A DNA stretch of 47,271 nucleotides from an uncultured Thermomicrobiales bacterium. GTDB taxonomy: Bacteria > Chloroflexota > Chloroflexia > Thermomicrobiales > UBA6265. Below are positions 37,602 to 47,162 of this stretch, one piece after another (within the stretch, counting starts at the first letter, position 1; each line of letters opens with the position of its first letter). Made by a program: the position numbers and the translations under genes. The notes beneath the pieces are model-generated. The model did not search any database and had not been told where the DNA came from. It saw only the letters and a list, made by a program, of their open reading frames with translations. Where the stretch lies: the NCBI GenBank assembly GCA_902806345.1, contig CADCWF010000001.1, positions 1 to 47,271 of the forward strand. The letters run 5' to 3'.

Positions 37602-39251
37602 ATGGCAACTTCAATCTGGTCCTGCACAACCTGCGGCCAACGCGCTCCCGAAACGCGACGCTTCTGCGTCGGCTGCGGGACGCCGATGGCCGCCTCTCGC
37701 CCCGGTCTGCAGCGCCCGTCGCAGACGCAGTTCACCCTGCCCGACTACCTGCTCGCGGCCCGGGAACGGGACGCGATCGGGCGGCGGCGAGCTCGGGACG
37801 CCGAGGAGGGTTCGGGCAGCGGGCTGATCCTGATCGGGGCGGCGGGGGCAGCGGGCGCGCTGCTCTTCAGCTCCCTCTCCCCTGTCGGTCTGGGGTTGCT
37901 CGCGGCCGGTCTCCTGGTGATGCTCATCGGCCTCTGGCGGATGCGGGTCGAAGTCTCGGCCCTGGAGCGAGCCGGTTGGCTGGTGGCTCTTGCCGGGCTC
38001 GTCGCCCTCGCTGGCGTCGGGGTCCAGGTGCTCGATCCGATCGATCCTGGAGTTGCGGAGGCACCGAGGGCGTCCGAACAATCGGTCGACGCGGGTACGG
38101 TCGCGACCGTGGCACGGGGGGTGCCGGCACCGCGCGGCGCGTCGCCGATGTTCCGCGGCGACGCCGCCCACTCGGGAATCCAGCCCGGCCCGGCGCTTGT
38201 CGGCGGCCCGGCGACGCGGTGGCGCACCTACCTCGGTGGAGAGATCTACTCCTCGCCGGTGGTGGCCGATGGTCGGGTCTTCGTCGGCACGAAGAGCGGG
38301 TTCCTCGTCGCGCTCGACGCCGGGGACGGCCGAGAAGCCTGGCGCGCCGACCTCGGTGGCTACGTGACCCGGTCGACCCCGGTCGTCGTCGGCGGCACAG
38401 TGTTCGCCGCCTCCGGCTACGCCGTGTTCGCGTTCGACGCGGCCGACGGGCGGGAACGCTGGCGGGCTCCCATCCGATTTGCCGGATCCGCCTCGCCGAC
38501 GTTCGCCGACGGTGTCCTCTACGTGCCGACCCAAGAGGGCAACGTCTTTGCCTTCGACGCCGCCACCGGCAAGGAACGCTGGCACCGCCGGACGGAAGGG
38601 CTCGTCTTCGGCGGCGTCGCCGTGGCCGACGGGGTGCTGGTCTACGGCGACGAGGCCGGAATGGTCTACGCCTTGTCGACCGAGAGCGGGCGGGAGGAGT
38701 GGCGGGCGGATGTCGGGGGTCAGGTCGTCGGGTCGCCGGCGCTGGCGAATGGCGCGGCCTACGTGAGCACCGGAACACCGGCGCTGCTCGCTCTGTCAAC
38801 GGAGGACGGCTCCGTGCGCTGGCAGGTGGAGATCGGCGGTGGTGCCTCGCCCGCCGTGAGCGACGATTTGGTCGTCGCCGCCGGCGACGACCAAGGACTC
38901 TACGGCTTCGCGGTGGCCGATGGCTCGCACCGCTGGCTGCTCCCGACCGGTGGTGCGATCCGGTCCTCTCCCGCGATCGTCGGCTCCGAGGTCTACGCCG
39001 CGAGCGGCCGCTCGATCTACGCCGTCGACGCCGCCGACGGAAGCCCCCGCTGGAGTTTTCCGACCGGAGGGGAGGTCACGTCCTCGCCGACGGTGGTCGA
39101 CGCCGTACTCTACGTCGGCGGCCACGACGGGTTCCTCTACGCCATCGAGGGGGACGGCCGGCGGCCGTTGGCGGCCGTTGCCGATGAGACGCGCTCGGAG
39201 ACAGAGCCCGGTCAATCGGCCGCCCCGGGCGCTCCCCGGGTCCAAAATTAA
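37602..39251 (+). CDS. zinc-ribbon, triple-membrane-segment, PQQ-type beta-propeller protein
   Basis: 549 residues. A four-cysteine ribbon C8-x2-C11-x10-C22-x2-C25 opens the protein, followed by three hydrophobic segments (about 74-90, 94-112, 125-144). The rest is seven to eight PQQ-like/BamB-like repeats with the regular signature of D-A-x-D-G-x-x-x-W and V-x-S-S-P-x-V-x-D-G-x-V-Y. No quinoprotein dehydrogenase active-site residues were recognised, so it is more likely a scaffold than an enzyme. Start ATG has only a weak ribosome site; TATCCT at 37562 may be its -10. Confidence 0.85.
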   Translation: MATSIWSCTTCGQRAPETRRFCVGCGTPMAASRPGLQRPSQTQFTLPDYLLAARERDAIGRRRARDAEEGSGSGLILIGAAGAAGALLFSSLSPVGLGLLAAGLLVMLIGLWRMRVEVSALERAGWLVALAGLVALAGVGVQVLDPIDPGVAEAPRASEQSVDAGTVATVARGVPAPRGASPMFRGDAAHSGIQPGPALVGGPATRWRTYLGGEIYSSPVVADGRVFVGTKSGFLVALDAGDGREAWRADLGGYVTRSTPVVVGGTVFAASGYAVFAFDAADGRERWRAPIRFAGSASPTFADGVLYVPTQEGNVFAFDAATGKERWHRRTEGLVFGGVAVADGVLVYGDEAGMVYALSTESGREEWRADVGGQVVGSPALANGAAYVSTGTPALLALSTEDGSVRWQVEIGGGASPAVSDDLVVAAGDDQGLYGFAVADGSHRWLLPTGGAIRSSPAIVGSEVYAASGRSIYAVDAADGSPRWSFPTGGEVTSSPTVVDAVLYVGGHDGFLYAIEGDGRRPLAAVADETRSETEPGQSAAPGAPRVQN

Positions 39252-42442: not shown

Positions 42443-42800
42443 CCGCCGCTCCCCACGAGTGCCGCCGCCGGGAGGTTCGGCGGCTCGGGCCCGATTGTAG
42501 ACTCGCCGGCCGGTAGGGTTCGTGTTGTGGCGACGGCCGGGGACCGCTTCGGTGAGTGGATGATGGGGGTCCACGCGGTGGGCGTCGCCGGCTACCCGAC
42601 CTCCCCGATCGCCAGCAGTCTGATCCGTCGGGCTAGTGCTCCGAAGGCGAAGGCACGTCCCGCCGCTGCTCGACCGAAGTCGGAACTCTGCGCGGCACCA
42701 CAACCAGTACGCCACGAAGGAGCGCGTACCCGGGGTCGCTGGCCCGCCCCGAAAGGGACACAATGGAAACGGCAATAGACACGATCGTTCGAGGAGACCC
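42443..42800. promoter_or_regulatory. divergent promoter region between ppc and S9 peptidase
   Basis: TACAAT on the minus strand (42494-42499) is a candidate -10 for ppc. CACAAT on the plus strand (42759-42764) is a candidate -10 for the peptidase, about 36 bases before its start. No gene is supported in the rest of this stretch. Confidence 0.4.
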
Positions 42801-44723
42801 ATGTCCGAACCTGTTCTCGCGGCGGCGCGGCCGCTCACCCCGGAGGAATTGGCCGACCGGGAAGTTCCGGCCGAGCCACGGATCTCGCCCGATGGCCGGA
42901 GCGTCGTGTTCGTCGTCGCGACGGCGGGCCAGCAGGGCGAGCATCCCCAGTCGGCACTCTGGATCTCCCGCGACGGTGCGCCCGTCCGTAAGCTGACCGC
43001 GGGCGTGTTCGAGGACCGCGCCCCCCGCTGGTCGCCCGACGGGTCGAAGCTGCTCTTCCTCTCGGACCGCGTCGAGCGCGGCAAGGAGAAGGGGCTCTAC
43101 GTGCTGCCGATGGACGGCGGCGAGGCCTTGCAACTCGGCGATCTCGCGGGCAAGCTGGAAGCGCCGGCTTGGTCGCCCGACGGCGCCACGGTAGCCGTGC
43201 TCCGGACCGACCCCACGCCCGAGGCACGGACGAAGCGGGAGGAGGAGCGCGACGACGCGGTCGAGGTCGACGCCGATCCTCGGTTCACCCGGCTCTGGGC
43301 GATCGACGCCGCCTCCGGCAAGGCCCGCTGCCTGACGACCGGAGAGCGGGAGGTGCGCTCGTTCTGCTGGCTGCCGGACGGGAGCGGCCTCGTCGCCGCG
43401 ACGACCGCCCTCCCCGGCTGGAACGAGCGGTATTCCGGCGCGGAACTCCGGGTGGTGCCCGCGAGCGGCGGCCGATCCCGCCCGATCGCCGCGTTCCCGC
43501 TCTTGCCCGGCGATCCGGTCGTCGTCGGGGAGGCAGTGGTGGTGCCGGGCGAAGGCGGCCGGCCCGATCCCGCCGTCGGCGTTTCCATCGTAGACCTGGC
43601 CGGCTCCAATCCGCGCAACCTGCTGCCCGGCTGGGAGGGCGAGGTGTCCGAGGTGGCGGCCCTGCCGGGGCGCCCCGACGTGGTCGCGTTCCACGCCGTG
43701 CAGGGGGTGCATGGGGGGATCTTCTCCCTCCAACTGGCGGACGGGTGGCCGGAGCCAATCACCCCCGAACCGATCCGGGACCGGGGCTCGGTCGAGCGTG
43801 GCGCGACGTTCTCGGCGGATGGCAACCGGGTTGCCTTCGTCTGGTCGGACGGCTCGACCCCTGAAGAGGTGTGGATCGGCGATGTCGGCGGCCCCGCGGC
43901 GCCGTTGACGAGCTTCGGCGAGTCGTTCGCGGGTCGGTTGCAGCCGGTCGAGACCGTGCGCTGGGTGGCCGACGACGGGGTCGAGATCGAGGGCCTGTTG
44001 ACCTACCCGGCCGGGTACGAGGAGGGAACCCGGTACCCGCTGGTGGTTGAGGTCCACGGCGGCCCCTCTTGGCAGTGGGAAGACCGGGTGATGCTCGAAT
44101 GGCACGACTGGGCCCAGATGCTGGCGAGCAATGGCATCGCGGTGCTGCTGCCGAACCCGCGGGGGAGCACCGGTCGGGGTGCGGAGTTTGCCCGGCTCCT
44201 GCAGGACGATGTCGGTGGCGGCGAGTCGCAAGACTTGATCGCTGGCACCGAGGCGATGGTCGCCCGCGGCATCGCTGACGCCGACCGGCTCGGGATCGGC
44301 GGTTGGAGCTGGGGCGGTTATCTGACGGCGAAGACGACGACCCGGACGGGGATGTTCAAGGCCGCGGTGAACGGCGCCGGCGTCGCCAACAACGTATCGG
44401 ACCACGCCCAGGGCGACATCCCGGCGGCGAACCTTCTCTACTTCGCGGGCGAGCCCTACCACCACCCGGATGCCTACTGGGCCGCTTCTCCGGTGCGCTA
44501 CGCCGCGAACGTGACGACCCCGACGCTGATCCTCCACGGAGACGCGGACGCCCGGGTTCACCCGGGCCAGGGAATGGAGTGGCACCGGGCGCTGAAGACG
44601 CTCGGGGTGCCGGTCGAGTTCGTCCGCTACCCGCGAGAAGCGCACCCGATCAAGGAGCGAGCCCACCAGATCGACTTGATGCGGCGGGTGCTCGCCTGGT
44701 ATCGGCGGTGGCTGGTGACCTGA
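42801..44723 (+). CDS. prolyl-oligopeptidase family (S9) serine peptidase
   Basis: 640 residues from ATG 42801 with GAGGAG upstream. The N-terminal part is a WD40/TolB-like propeller (R-I-S-P-D-G-R-S-V-V-F-V-V, P-R-W-S-P-D-G-S-K-L-L-F-L). The C-terminal hydrolase has the triad S503 (G-W-S-W-G-G-Y), D583 (L-H-G-D-A-D) and H615 (R-E-A-H-P). No signal peptide, so cytoplasmic. Such enzymes are dipeptidyl or acylaminoacyl peptidases; substrate is not evident. About 150 bases upstream of the Mau-like cluster and possibly unrelated to it. Confidence 0.93.
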   Translation: MSEPVLAAARPLTPEELADREVPAEPRISPDGRSVVFVVATAGQQGEHPQSALWISRDGAPVRKLTAGVFEDRAPRWSPDGSKLLFLSDRVERGKEKGLYVLPMDGGEALQLGDLAGKLEAPAWSPDGATVAVLRTDPTPEARTKREEERDDAVEVDADPRFTRLWAIDAASGKARCLTTGEREVRSFCWLPDGSGLVAATTALPGWNERYSGAELRVVPASGGRSRPIAAFPLLPGDPVVVGEAVVVPGEGGRPDPAVGVSIVDLAGSNPRNLLPGWEGEVSEVAALPGRPDVVAFHAVQGVHGGIFSLQLADGWPEPITPEPIRDRGSVERGATFSADGNRVAFVWSDGSTPEEVWIGDVGGPAAPLTSFGESFAGRLQPVETVRWVADDGVEIEGLLTYPAGYEEGTRYPLVVEVHGGPSWQWEDRVMLEWHDWAQMLASNGIAVLLPNPRGSTGRGAEFARLLQDDVGGGESQDLIAGTEAMVARGIADADRLGIGGWSWGGYLTAKTTTRTGMFKAAVNGAGVANNVSDHAQGDIPAANLLYFAGEPYHHPDAYWAASPVRYAANVTTPTLILHGDADARVHPGQGMEWHRALKTLGVPVEFVRYPREAHPIKERAHQIDLMRRVLAWYRRWLVT

Positions 44724-44865: not shown

Positions 44866-44871
44866 TACAAT
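44866..44871 (+). promoter_or_regulatory. -10-like TACAAT at the mauE-like start
   Basis: TATACAAT overlaps the first ATG of the mauE-like gene. If this is the -10, transcription starts about seven bases further on and translation must begin at the GTG at 44930, which has CGGAG upstream. Confidence 0.35.
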
Positions 44872-45496
44872 GACCGCCGTCGCTCCCCGCGGCGCGGCGC
44901 CGTCCGCCGTACCTACTCGGAGTCTGCGCGTGTCCATTGCCGTCCTGGCGCTGCAACTCGCGCTGGCGCTCGTCTTCGTGGCGTCGGCGGCGGCCAAGGT
45001 GCTGCGCTCGGACGAGTTCGTCGCCGCGCTGCGTCTCAGCCACCTCCCCGAGCCGATCGCCGTGCTGACAGCCGTCGCCGTTCCAGCCCTGGAGATCGGG
45101 TTGGCCTTCTGGTTGGTCCTGGCGCCGCCGGATCGGGTGCCGTCAGCGTTCGTCGCGGCGGGGGCGCTCCTGATCGCGTTCACCGTTTGGATGGGATGGG
45201 TCGAGGCGCGTCGCCTGCGCGTGCGGTGCGGCTGCTTCGGCGCCGGGGGCGGCGAGGTCGGCCCGCGGACGATTGCCCGGAACCTGGGGCTGCTGGTGCT
45301 GGCCCTGACCGGATGGGGTGTCGCGTCGCGCGTCGCCTCGCCCCTGTCGGGGCTTTCGGTGGAGTTGCTGGCCACGATGGTGGCTGTCGCCCTATGCGTC
45401 GCGTTGCTCCAGGCACTCCGGATGGCTTGGCCCCATATGGTCATCGACTACGAATCGTTCCAGCGGCGGGGCGCGACCGCGCTCGAAGGGGAGTAG
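44870..45496 (+). CDS. MauE-like (DoxX-type) membrane protein for disulfide maturation
   Basis: 208 residues from ATG 44870; GTG 44930 is a good alternative and gives a start like other MauE proteins. Four hydrophobic segments; the first ends in the family pattern L-V-F-V-A-S-A-A-A-K-V-L. C120-G-C122-F-G between the third and fourth segments is the conserved MauE cysteine motif. In methylotrophs MauE acts with MauD to form the disulfides of the methylamine dehydrogenase light chain in the periplasm. First of three genes whose order E-D-A matches the mau operon. Confidence 0.85.
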   Translation: MTAVAPRGAAPSAVPTRSLRVSIAVLALQLALALVFVASAAAKVLRSDEFVAALRLSHLPEPIAVLTAVAVPALEIGLAFWLVLAPPDRVPSAFVAAGALLIAFTVWMGWVEARRLRVRCGCFGAGGGEVGPRTIARNLGLLVLALTGWGVASRVASPLSGLSVELLATMVAVALCVALLQALRMAWPHMVIDYESFQRRGATALEGE

Positions 45497-45503
45497 AGCC
45501 GGG

Positions 45504-46145
45504 ATGTCGGGATTGTTGCTCGTCTCGTACGTTGCCCTCTGGGTGCTCGTCGCGGTGATGGCGGTGCTGCTGCTGCTGCTCTACCGCCACTTCGGGATGA
45601 TGTCGCTCGGCACCCTCGAAGGGGTCCAGCGCGACGGCCTGCCGGTCGGCAGCATCGCGCCGTCGATCAGCGGGATCACCGCCGACGGCGTGGATCGGGG
45701 ATGGGAGCCCAAGACGGGGCGCTACCAGTTGCTCCTGTTCGCCGCTCCCGACTGCGAGCCCTGTGCCACGGTGATGCCCGAGGTCAACCGGCTCGCCCGG
45801 ACCCGCGAGGCGGGTATCGATGTGGCGGCGATCGTGCCGGGGCCGAAGTCTGAAGCGGTGCGGATGGTCAACCGGTACGCCTCGCCGTTCGAGACGCTGG
45901 CCGAGGATGGCAGCGGCGCCTTCGGCCGGTTCCGGGTCCGGGTGACGCCGTTCGGCTTCGTCATCGGCCCGGATGGCCGAGTCCTTGCAAAGGGGCTCTG
46001 TGGCGACATCGGTCGCCTCGGCAACTTGCTCCACGCGGCAGGACTGAAGGATGCCGCGACGCACTTGCAGTCGCAGGCCCATCCGTTGACGCTGGTTACG
46101 AGCGGGTCGAACGGCGCGAACGGCGTCGCGGCGTCGCGCAGCTAG
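45504..46145 (+). CDS. MauD-like membrane-anchored thioredoxin-fold protein
   Basis: 213 residues. An N-terminal transmembrane anchor (Y-V-A-L-W-V-L-V-A-V-M-A-V-L-L-L-L-L-Y) is followed by L-P-V-G-S-I-A-P and a thioredoxin-like domain with redox motif C84-E-P-C87, a cis-proline region V-T-P-F-G-F-V-I and G-R-V-L-A-K-G-L. The gene begins eight bases after the mauE-like stop. Methylotroph MauD is needed for light-chain disulfide formation, and this domain order and cysteine pair agree with that role. Confidence 0.88.
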   Translation: MSGLLLVSYVALWVLVAVMAVLLLLLYRHFGMMSLGTLEGVQRDGLPVGSIAPSISGITADGVDRGWEPKTGRYQLLLFAAPDCEPCATVMPEVNRLARTREAGIDVAAIVPGPKSEAVRMVNRYASPFETLAEDGSGAFGRFRVRVTPFGFVIGPDGRVLAKGLCGDIGRLGNLLHAAGLKDAATHLQSQAHPLTLVTSGSNGANGVAASRS

Positions 46146-46232
46146 AGACAAGACGGGGAAACGGGACGGGGAGCGGGCGTGCCGGCGCCGGGAAGCGGCG
46201 GCACCACGATTGGTTGGGGAGGGTCTCGATCG

Positions 46233-46769
46233 ATGGCACTGGTAGGGCGCGTCGGCGAAGAGCTGGCGAGGACGATCAACCGGCGGTCGGCGGTCAAGCG
46301 GACGGCGGCGGCGGTGTTCGGCGCGGTCGCGGCCTGGTCGGTGGAAGGGTTCTCGCGGAACAAGGCGCTGGCCGACCATTGCGCCTACGTCACAACCGGC
46401 GACTGCTCCTGCAACCCGCCGTATGGCGAGTTCTGCGGCCGGATCGACCGCTCGTATTGCGCCGGCTCGGCCTGCTCCGGCGGCTGCACCTACGACGAGT
46501 CGTGGCGTTACGTGGGCGGCTGCTGGTGCTCTGCCACCTGCTCCTACACGGGGGAGGACGGCTCGCCGATCAACGGCTATTACAAGTGCTGCGACTGCAA
46601 CTGCTACGGCACGCAGTGCTCCTGCCGCGAGTTCGTGCCTGGCGGCAGCTCGAGCCACGACGACGGCTCAGACGCGTTCGTGCCGCCGCCGCCGAGCAAC
46701 GAGGACCCCGGGGTCGTGTTCCAGCCGGGCGGTGGGTTCGACTTCACGGACCCCTTCTTCGACGATTAG
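46233..46769 (+). CDS. Tat-exported cysteine-rich protein resembling the methylamine dehydrogenase light chain
   Basis: 178 residues from ATG 46233 with GGGGAGGG upstream. Twin-arginine signal R17-R18-S-A-V-K ahead of a hydrophobic stretch. The mature core (residues 50-131) has 16 cysteines and no other strong feature. W98-C-S-A-T-C followed by K-C119-C120-D-C-N-C and C129-S-C131 aligns by eye with S-W-V-A-S-C ... D-C-C-G-Y ... R-C-P-C of the Paracoccus light chain, W98 falling on the first TTQ tryptophan. The second TTQ tryptophan region is missing: after C131 the protein is a 47-residue Pro/Gly/acidic tail without Trp or Cys. So it is MauA-like but probably not a TTQ enzyme. Confidence 0.85.
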   Translation: MALVGRVGEELARTINRRSAVKRTAAAVFGAVAAWSVEGFSRNKALADHCAYVTTGDCSCNPPYGEFCGRIDRSYCAGSACSGGCTYDESWRYVGGCWCSATCSYTGEDGSPINGYYKCCDCNCYGTQCSCREFVPGGSSSHDDGSDAFVPPPPSNEDPGVVFQPGGGFDFTDPFFDD

Positions 46770-46795
46770 TTCCACGGCATTGCCAGGACTCAACG

Positions 46796-46825
46796 AAGGC
46801 GCCGGGTTCAGAACCCGGCGCCTTT
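46796..46825 (+). terminator. rho-independent terminator of the Mau-like cluster
   Basis: A 13-bp perfect stem (AAGGCGCCGGGTT and its complement around CAG) runs into TTTGCGTGTTGCG. Strong, and placed 27 bases after the stop. Confidence 0.85.
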
Positions 46826-47162
46826 GCGTGTTGCGTGGGCGGGTTTGGCAGGTCGGCGAGGCGATCTACCGGGTTCAGCCGGGTTTCCCGGGCTTCGCGC
46901 CGGTCAGGTCAAGCCGTTCAAAGACGCCCACAGGGTATCTTCGCCCTCCGCTCGCAACCCCGCAAGCCCGTGGCGGGGCAGGACGAACGGTGCTCCCTCT
47001 GTTCGGCCTTCCACAACGGCCAGTGCGAGTACGCGGCGAGGGCGTGGGCTCAAGCGCGCGTTCGCCATCACGCCGACCGGTTCCAAGCCGGACTCCACGA
47101 CCACGATCGACCTCACCCCATCCGGTCCAACCCCGTGCGCTTGCCGCAAACGCCGTCCAGCG
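46826..47162. other. intergenic stretch, no supported gene
   Basis: Between the terminator and the partial gene at the right edge. Open frames on both strands lack ribosome sites and recognisable domains. Confidence 0.5.

Follow-up and report, generated by a model that had tools for sequence, protein, structure and literature searches.

In Paracoccus denitrificans the mau genes are arranged in the order mauRFBEDACJGMN (L066), and formation of the TTQ cofactor requires two tryptophans, W57 and W108 of the Paracoccus light chain. MauE and MauD have been reported to be essential for methylamine metabolism, and MauE has been proposed to take part in making the beta-subunit disulfides (as cited in PMC7794033); oxidation of client cysteines by MauD and MauE has been inferred in published work. 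The passages of that report drawn on here also describe candidate RiPP clusters of Streptomyces, detected with decRiPPter, in which MauE, and in one family also MauD, is encoded beside cysteine-rich precursors having at least eight cysteines, and the authors put forward a similar idea of disulfide formation for these clusters (PMC7794033). The Streptomyces clusters resemble the locus presented here in combining MauE, with or without MauD, and a cysteine-rich precursor with no other mau genes, and differ from it in being candidate RiPP clusters of another phylum, with no mention of MauF in those passages, whereas the third protein here has a Tat leader (PMC7794033). Given this precedent, the pairing of mau helper proteins with another cysteine-rich client is not a new concept (PMC7794033). 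The literature covered, which was partial and included few subscription journals, contained no description of a Chloroflexota module that joins E, D and a Tat-leader client to a short MauF.

The DNA analysed here, referred to as the window, is a stretch of 47,271 nucleotides from an uncultured bacterium of the Thermomicrobiales, the order that also contains Thermomicrobium. On the megaplasmid of T. roseum (NC_011961.1; L065 4783–13415) and in two relatives (L030 15055–18534 and L044 3430–6909), genes for a light chain, a propeller-like–MauE fusion, a MauD-like protein and a MauF-like protein follow one another in a single block, and the MauD-like and MauF-like genes are annotated as hypothetical proteins. 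Like the window genome, the T. roseum megaplasmid lacks PF06433 and PF03150. Unlike the third protein of the window, the Thermomicrobium light chains are of the PF02975 type (E 2e-13 against MADH light chains in the PDB), retain both tryptophan positions, occur as several paralogues, and adjoin propeller-like proteins, one of which is fused to MauE. This block is possibly a diverged amine dehydrogenase system. The window genome shares with P. denitrificans a MauF homologue and the order of MauE, MauD and a small cysteine-rich protein with a twin-arginine leader. It differs in lacking mauB, MauG and PF02975, in a third protein that has no Trp108 and no detectable sequence match to MauA, and in a MauF that is short and encoded apart from the other three genes.

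Gene organization of the locus

Near the end of the window, genes for MauE, a MauD-like protein and a small cysteine-rich protein (the putative client) lie consecutively on the plus strand (Table 1), bearing out the E-D-A-like gene order proposed in the preliminary description. The stop codon of mauE and the start of the mauD-like gene are separated by 7 nt. The hairpin downstream of the client gene folds with −28.8 kcal/mol (z −5.7) and is strong. A consensus terminator scan does not accept it and no real U-run stands behind it, so that the strong terminator of the preliminary description is here a possible one. Upstream of mauE are an S9 prolyl-oligopeptidase gene on the same strand (42636–44723) and a phosphoenolpyruvate carboxylase gene on the opposite strand, the adjacent genes being taken from mechanical ORF calls. 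The S9 gene also adjoins mauE in two relatives (L032 and L040), indicating synteny within the family. A role for this peptidase in processing was weighed and dropped; its N-terminus reads as cytosolic, and beyond the family the gene is not conserved.

Table 1. Features of the locus, in window coordinates.
Feature	Position	Strand	Description
mauE	44870..45496	+	polytopic membrane redox protein, CGCF motif; PF07291 E 6.6e-22
mauD-like	45504..46145	+	membrane-anchored thioredoxin-fold protein, CEPC site; TIGR02661 E 4e-13
client (third gene)	46233..46769	+	178-aa Cys-rich protein; homologues in 8 relatives
twin-arginine leader of client	46233..46373 (end approximate)	+	RR invariant in 11 homologues
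15-pair hairpin 3' of client gene	46794..46826	+	possible terminator, poor U-tract

MauE and MauD-like proteins

The window MauE scores 78.6 bits against PF07291, for which the cut-off is 27, and its CxCF motif is present in every aligned homologue, as is the CxxC site of the MauD-like protein. The best NCBIfam match of the latter is TIGR02661, at 49.3 bits compared with an equivalog cut-off of 188.6, and BLASTP aligns it to P. denitrificans MauD with 27% identity over 188 positions (E 4e-14). Judged by these comparisons the protein is homologous to MauD, yet it is not a TIGR02661 equivalog. Its closest relatives in the PDB are of the ResA and CcmG type, and its dN/dS is 0.23–0.26. The source genome encodes a second MauE (L046 6443–8467, on G000:C212), which is fused to three thioredoxin-like domains with one CxxC each and outscores the window MauE on PF07291.

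Missing dehydrogenase components

Profile searches of the whole source assembly found no PF06433 (mauB; P. denitrificans control E 2e-212), no PF03150 (MauG; P. denitrificans control found) and no PF02975 (mauA). Since the source MAG is ∼90% complete in 377 contigs, mauB or mauG could have been missed. Among the 16 genomes or records tested, PF06433 occurs solely in the P. denitrificans control and PF03150 solely in that control and one other genome (G362). The reported absence of mauB, MauG and MauF is thus accurate for the window, and for mauB and MauG it extends to the genome, where no TTQ-competent PF02975 light chain was found either; MauF is present elsewhere in the genome. The window also encodes a beta-propeller protein of the PQQ/BamB-like kind (37602–39251), which has membrane segments and begins with a zinc-ribbon-like region. 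As a stand-in for the heavy chain it was rejected on account of that N-terminus and because no link to MauE was seen in relatives.

The cysteine-rich client protein

Behind its twin-arginine leader the client has 16 cysteines in the mature core and a tail rich in proline, glycine and aspartate. All core cysteines are conserved within the family in an alignment of 11 homologues. TatC is encoded in the source genome, and TAT_signal_seq gives weak matches in four family members (best E 0.026); the leader and the machinery together mark the client as a predicted Tat substrate. The dN/dS of the client core is 0.12–0.48, a range that indicates purifying selection and argues that the gene is not debris.

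Searches of Pfam, NCBIfam and the PDB gave no match for the client, and neither PF02975 nor TIGR02659 matched it or any of its 11 homologues. W98 is the sole invariant tryptophan among these homologues, and the C-terminal part of the protein contains no tryptophan at all. Examined for the two TTQ tryptophans, W57 and W108, the client has no counterpart of MauA Trp108 and, on this basis, is not expected to make TTQ in the established way. The best local alignments bring W98 onto MauA W57 and also superpose the CC pair and the CxC pair on those of MauA. Shuffled sequences scored as well in 114 of 1000 trials for the window client, which is not significant, and in 6 of 1000 for one homologue, which is marginal; HMM tests did not raise MauA above shuffled sequences, and altogether the profile, HMM and shuffle tests gave nothing significant for the window client. 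A W..C..CC..CxC motif was discarded as evidence because it was written post hoc, fails in several members and occurs in 0.4–16% of shuffles. AlphaFold2 produced poor models for both the full-length client with 11 homologues (pLDDT 43.8) and the mature core with 21 sequences (pLDDT 52.5), and a Foldseek search with the poor client model returned no match below E 1. The description of the third gene as light-chain-like can be kept for its position, leader and cysteines but not for its sequence, which finds no significant MauA match; the client is MauA-like in position, leader and Cys/Trp pattern, and these features suggest descent from MauA.

MauF as a fourth member

A MauF homologue is encoded in the source genome on a contig other than that of the trio (G000:C276:53835–54389). 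The profile of this short protein aligns with P. denitrificans MauF over 137 columns (hhalign E 3.4e-10), compared with E 0.31–0.98 for three decoy membrane proteins, and by profile comparison it is homologous to MauF. It is ∼190 residues long and matches residues 98–238 of the 277-residue P. denitrificans protein. In three relatives (L034, L035 and L037) a membrane protein of ∼190 residues is encoded directly 3' of the client, and in L033 one gene intervenes; in G007 the client and MauF lie at contig ends (L039 and L061), which fits adjacency without proving it. MauF is present in six of the eight client-bearing relatives, the other two being incomplete MAGs. The conserved unit is MauE, MauD, a small cysteine-rich protein and MauF, and in the genus of the window, where MauF is on a separate contig, it is split.

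The source-genome MauF lies near a LuxR-type response regulator gene. Such a regulator recurs at four loci (L033 9202–13529, L059 6064–9645, L060 19–3280 and L041 1174–4247), where its neighbour is MauF or a client paralogue, and in the first three MauF, a small protein of 80–100 residues and an ATP-grasp-like protein come after it. No lost copy of the client was recognisable in six frames between the response regulator and MauF of the source genome (L059 8391–8793).

Distribution among relatives and across Chloroflexota

A search of 150 genomes recovered client homologues in eight relatives beyond the source genome, and six of these eight, spread over the genus, family and class, keep the E-D-client order (L032, L034, L035, L038, L039 and L040). 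Among 400 Chloroflexota genomes searched with the MauF profile alone, 17 are carriers. Twelve of these are outside the order; nine have MauE within 3 kb, and eight have a small cysteine-rich ORF in the same cluster, seven of them with a strict RR leader. The expectation that the trio would recur without mauB and mauG is thus borne out both in relatives and in distant Chloroflexota. The third slot is occupied by a true PF02975 light chain in L094 (37.5 bits compared with a cut-off of 25, both tryptophan positions present) and by a different cysteine-rich protein in L093, L095–L099 and L103. Across Chloroflexota the client slot changes while MauF, MauE and MauD persist. Because some members have TTQ-competent light chains, use outside the enzyme is not general.

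A probable folding module for a non-TTQ client and its alternatives

We consider it probable (roughly 0.6) that one small exported, disulfide-rich protein other than a TTQ subunit is folded oxidatively in the envelope by a module dedicated to it, made up of MauE, MauD and the short MauF encoded elsewhere in the genome. The client would leave the cell through the Tat system by means of its RR leader; MauD, with its CEPC site, would make or shuffle the ∼8 disulfides estimated for the client and would be re-oxidised by MauE, presumably toward the quinone pool; MauF may assist within the membrane; and the folded client would work at or outside the cell surface. We infer the steps after export, the disulfide count and whatever contacts the parts of the module make with one another. 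The gene order, the family membership of MauE, MauD and MauF, the RR leader, TatC, the recurrence, the purifying selection and the absence of PF06433 and PF03150 are the observations on which the reading is built. The occurrence of the trio without mauB and mauG in relatives, together with their absence from the genome, makes a client other than a TTQ subunit the better reading. This agrees with the preliminary description insofar as it proposed a dedicated export-and-disulfide system for a different product; its statement that MauF is absent holds for the window but not for the genome, MauF being the fourth module member on C276. With similar pairings recurring across Chloroflexota, the mau helpers resemble a protein-folding kit that can be put to repeated use.

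Alternatively, MauE and MauD might be a general envelope thiol-disulfide pair comparable to DsbB/DsbA, VKOR or CcdA/ResA, with the cysteine-rich gene as one of many substrates or a passenger. The ResA and CcmG types are the nearest solved relatives of MauD, and the genome has another MauE-thioredoxin fusion, as would be expected of a general pair; nevertheless, we find this unlikely, because small cysteine-rich ORFs recur beside MauF, MauE and MauD in distant families despite their changed sequence, MauF and the client are found together in relatives, and the client is present in only 8 of about 149 relatives. The same cysteine-rich slot holds true PF02975 light chains, with propeller-like proteins adjoining, in L094 and Thermomicrobium, and the invariant W98 pairs with MauA W57 in the best-scoring local alignments. 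Both facts would suit a cryptic amine dehydrogenase in which the client is a light chain with a non-TTQ tryptophan cofactor, while its partner and the enzymes modifying it are distant or encoded elsewhere. However, the genome lacks PF06433 and PF03150, the second conserved tryptophan is missing from the client family, and within the client family neither a propeller nor a modifying enzyme is a recurrent neighbour, making such a dehydrogenase unlikely. A more radical variant, in which the cysteine-flanked invariant tryptophan, likely at the site of MauA Trp57, carries a new cofactor such as a Cys-Trp quinone without MauG, and F-E-D serves single-tryptophan redox proteins needing no known heavy chain, is a speculation to which we assign very little weight.

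The Streptomyces candidate RiPP clusters, in which MauE and MauD accompany cysteine-rich precursors (PMC7794033), and the S9 peptidase gene upstream of the trio here and in L032 and L040 raise the question of whether the cluster is devoted to a ribosomal natural product or an antimicrobial miniprotein, MauE and MauD acting as tailoring disulfide formers. This is improbable, as the S9 enzyme is apparently cytosolic and conserved only within the family, neither a transporter nor an immunity gene is a recurrent neighbour, and the client has ∼90 residues and a Tat leader. Least credible of all is the idea that the trio is what is left of a methylamine dehydrogenase operon in decay. The missing mauB and mauG and the absent Trp108 position would be expected of a remnant, but none of the genes is broken, purifying selection acts on the client core and on MauD, the cysteines are conserved, and the same arrangement is found in distant families.

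If MauE, MauD and MauF do constitute a folding module, the light-chain maturation genes F, E and D are separable from their namesake enzyme as a portable unit with exchangeable cysteine-rich clients, and the individual roles of the three proteins become testable with a client that may need neither cofactor nor heavy chain. In this module bacteria may have a route reserved for proteins very dense in disulfides. The hypothetical labels on the Thermomicrobium MauD-like and MauF-like genes are annotation gaps exposed by the comparison.

Several arrangements of these genes were observed in passing. Two Chloroflexota genomes without PF06433 and PF03150 carry clusters of MauE, MauD, a light chain with both tryptophans, and MauF (L094 7093–9401 and L063 7175–9525). 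In L095 (1457–2899) the MauE and MauF matches fall within one ORF of 480 residues, suggesting a natural fusion, and in L099 (5480–8288) a cluster carries a pair of MauD-like genes and a tandem pair of client paralogues upstream of MauF.
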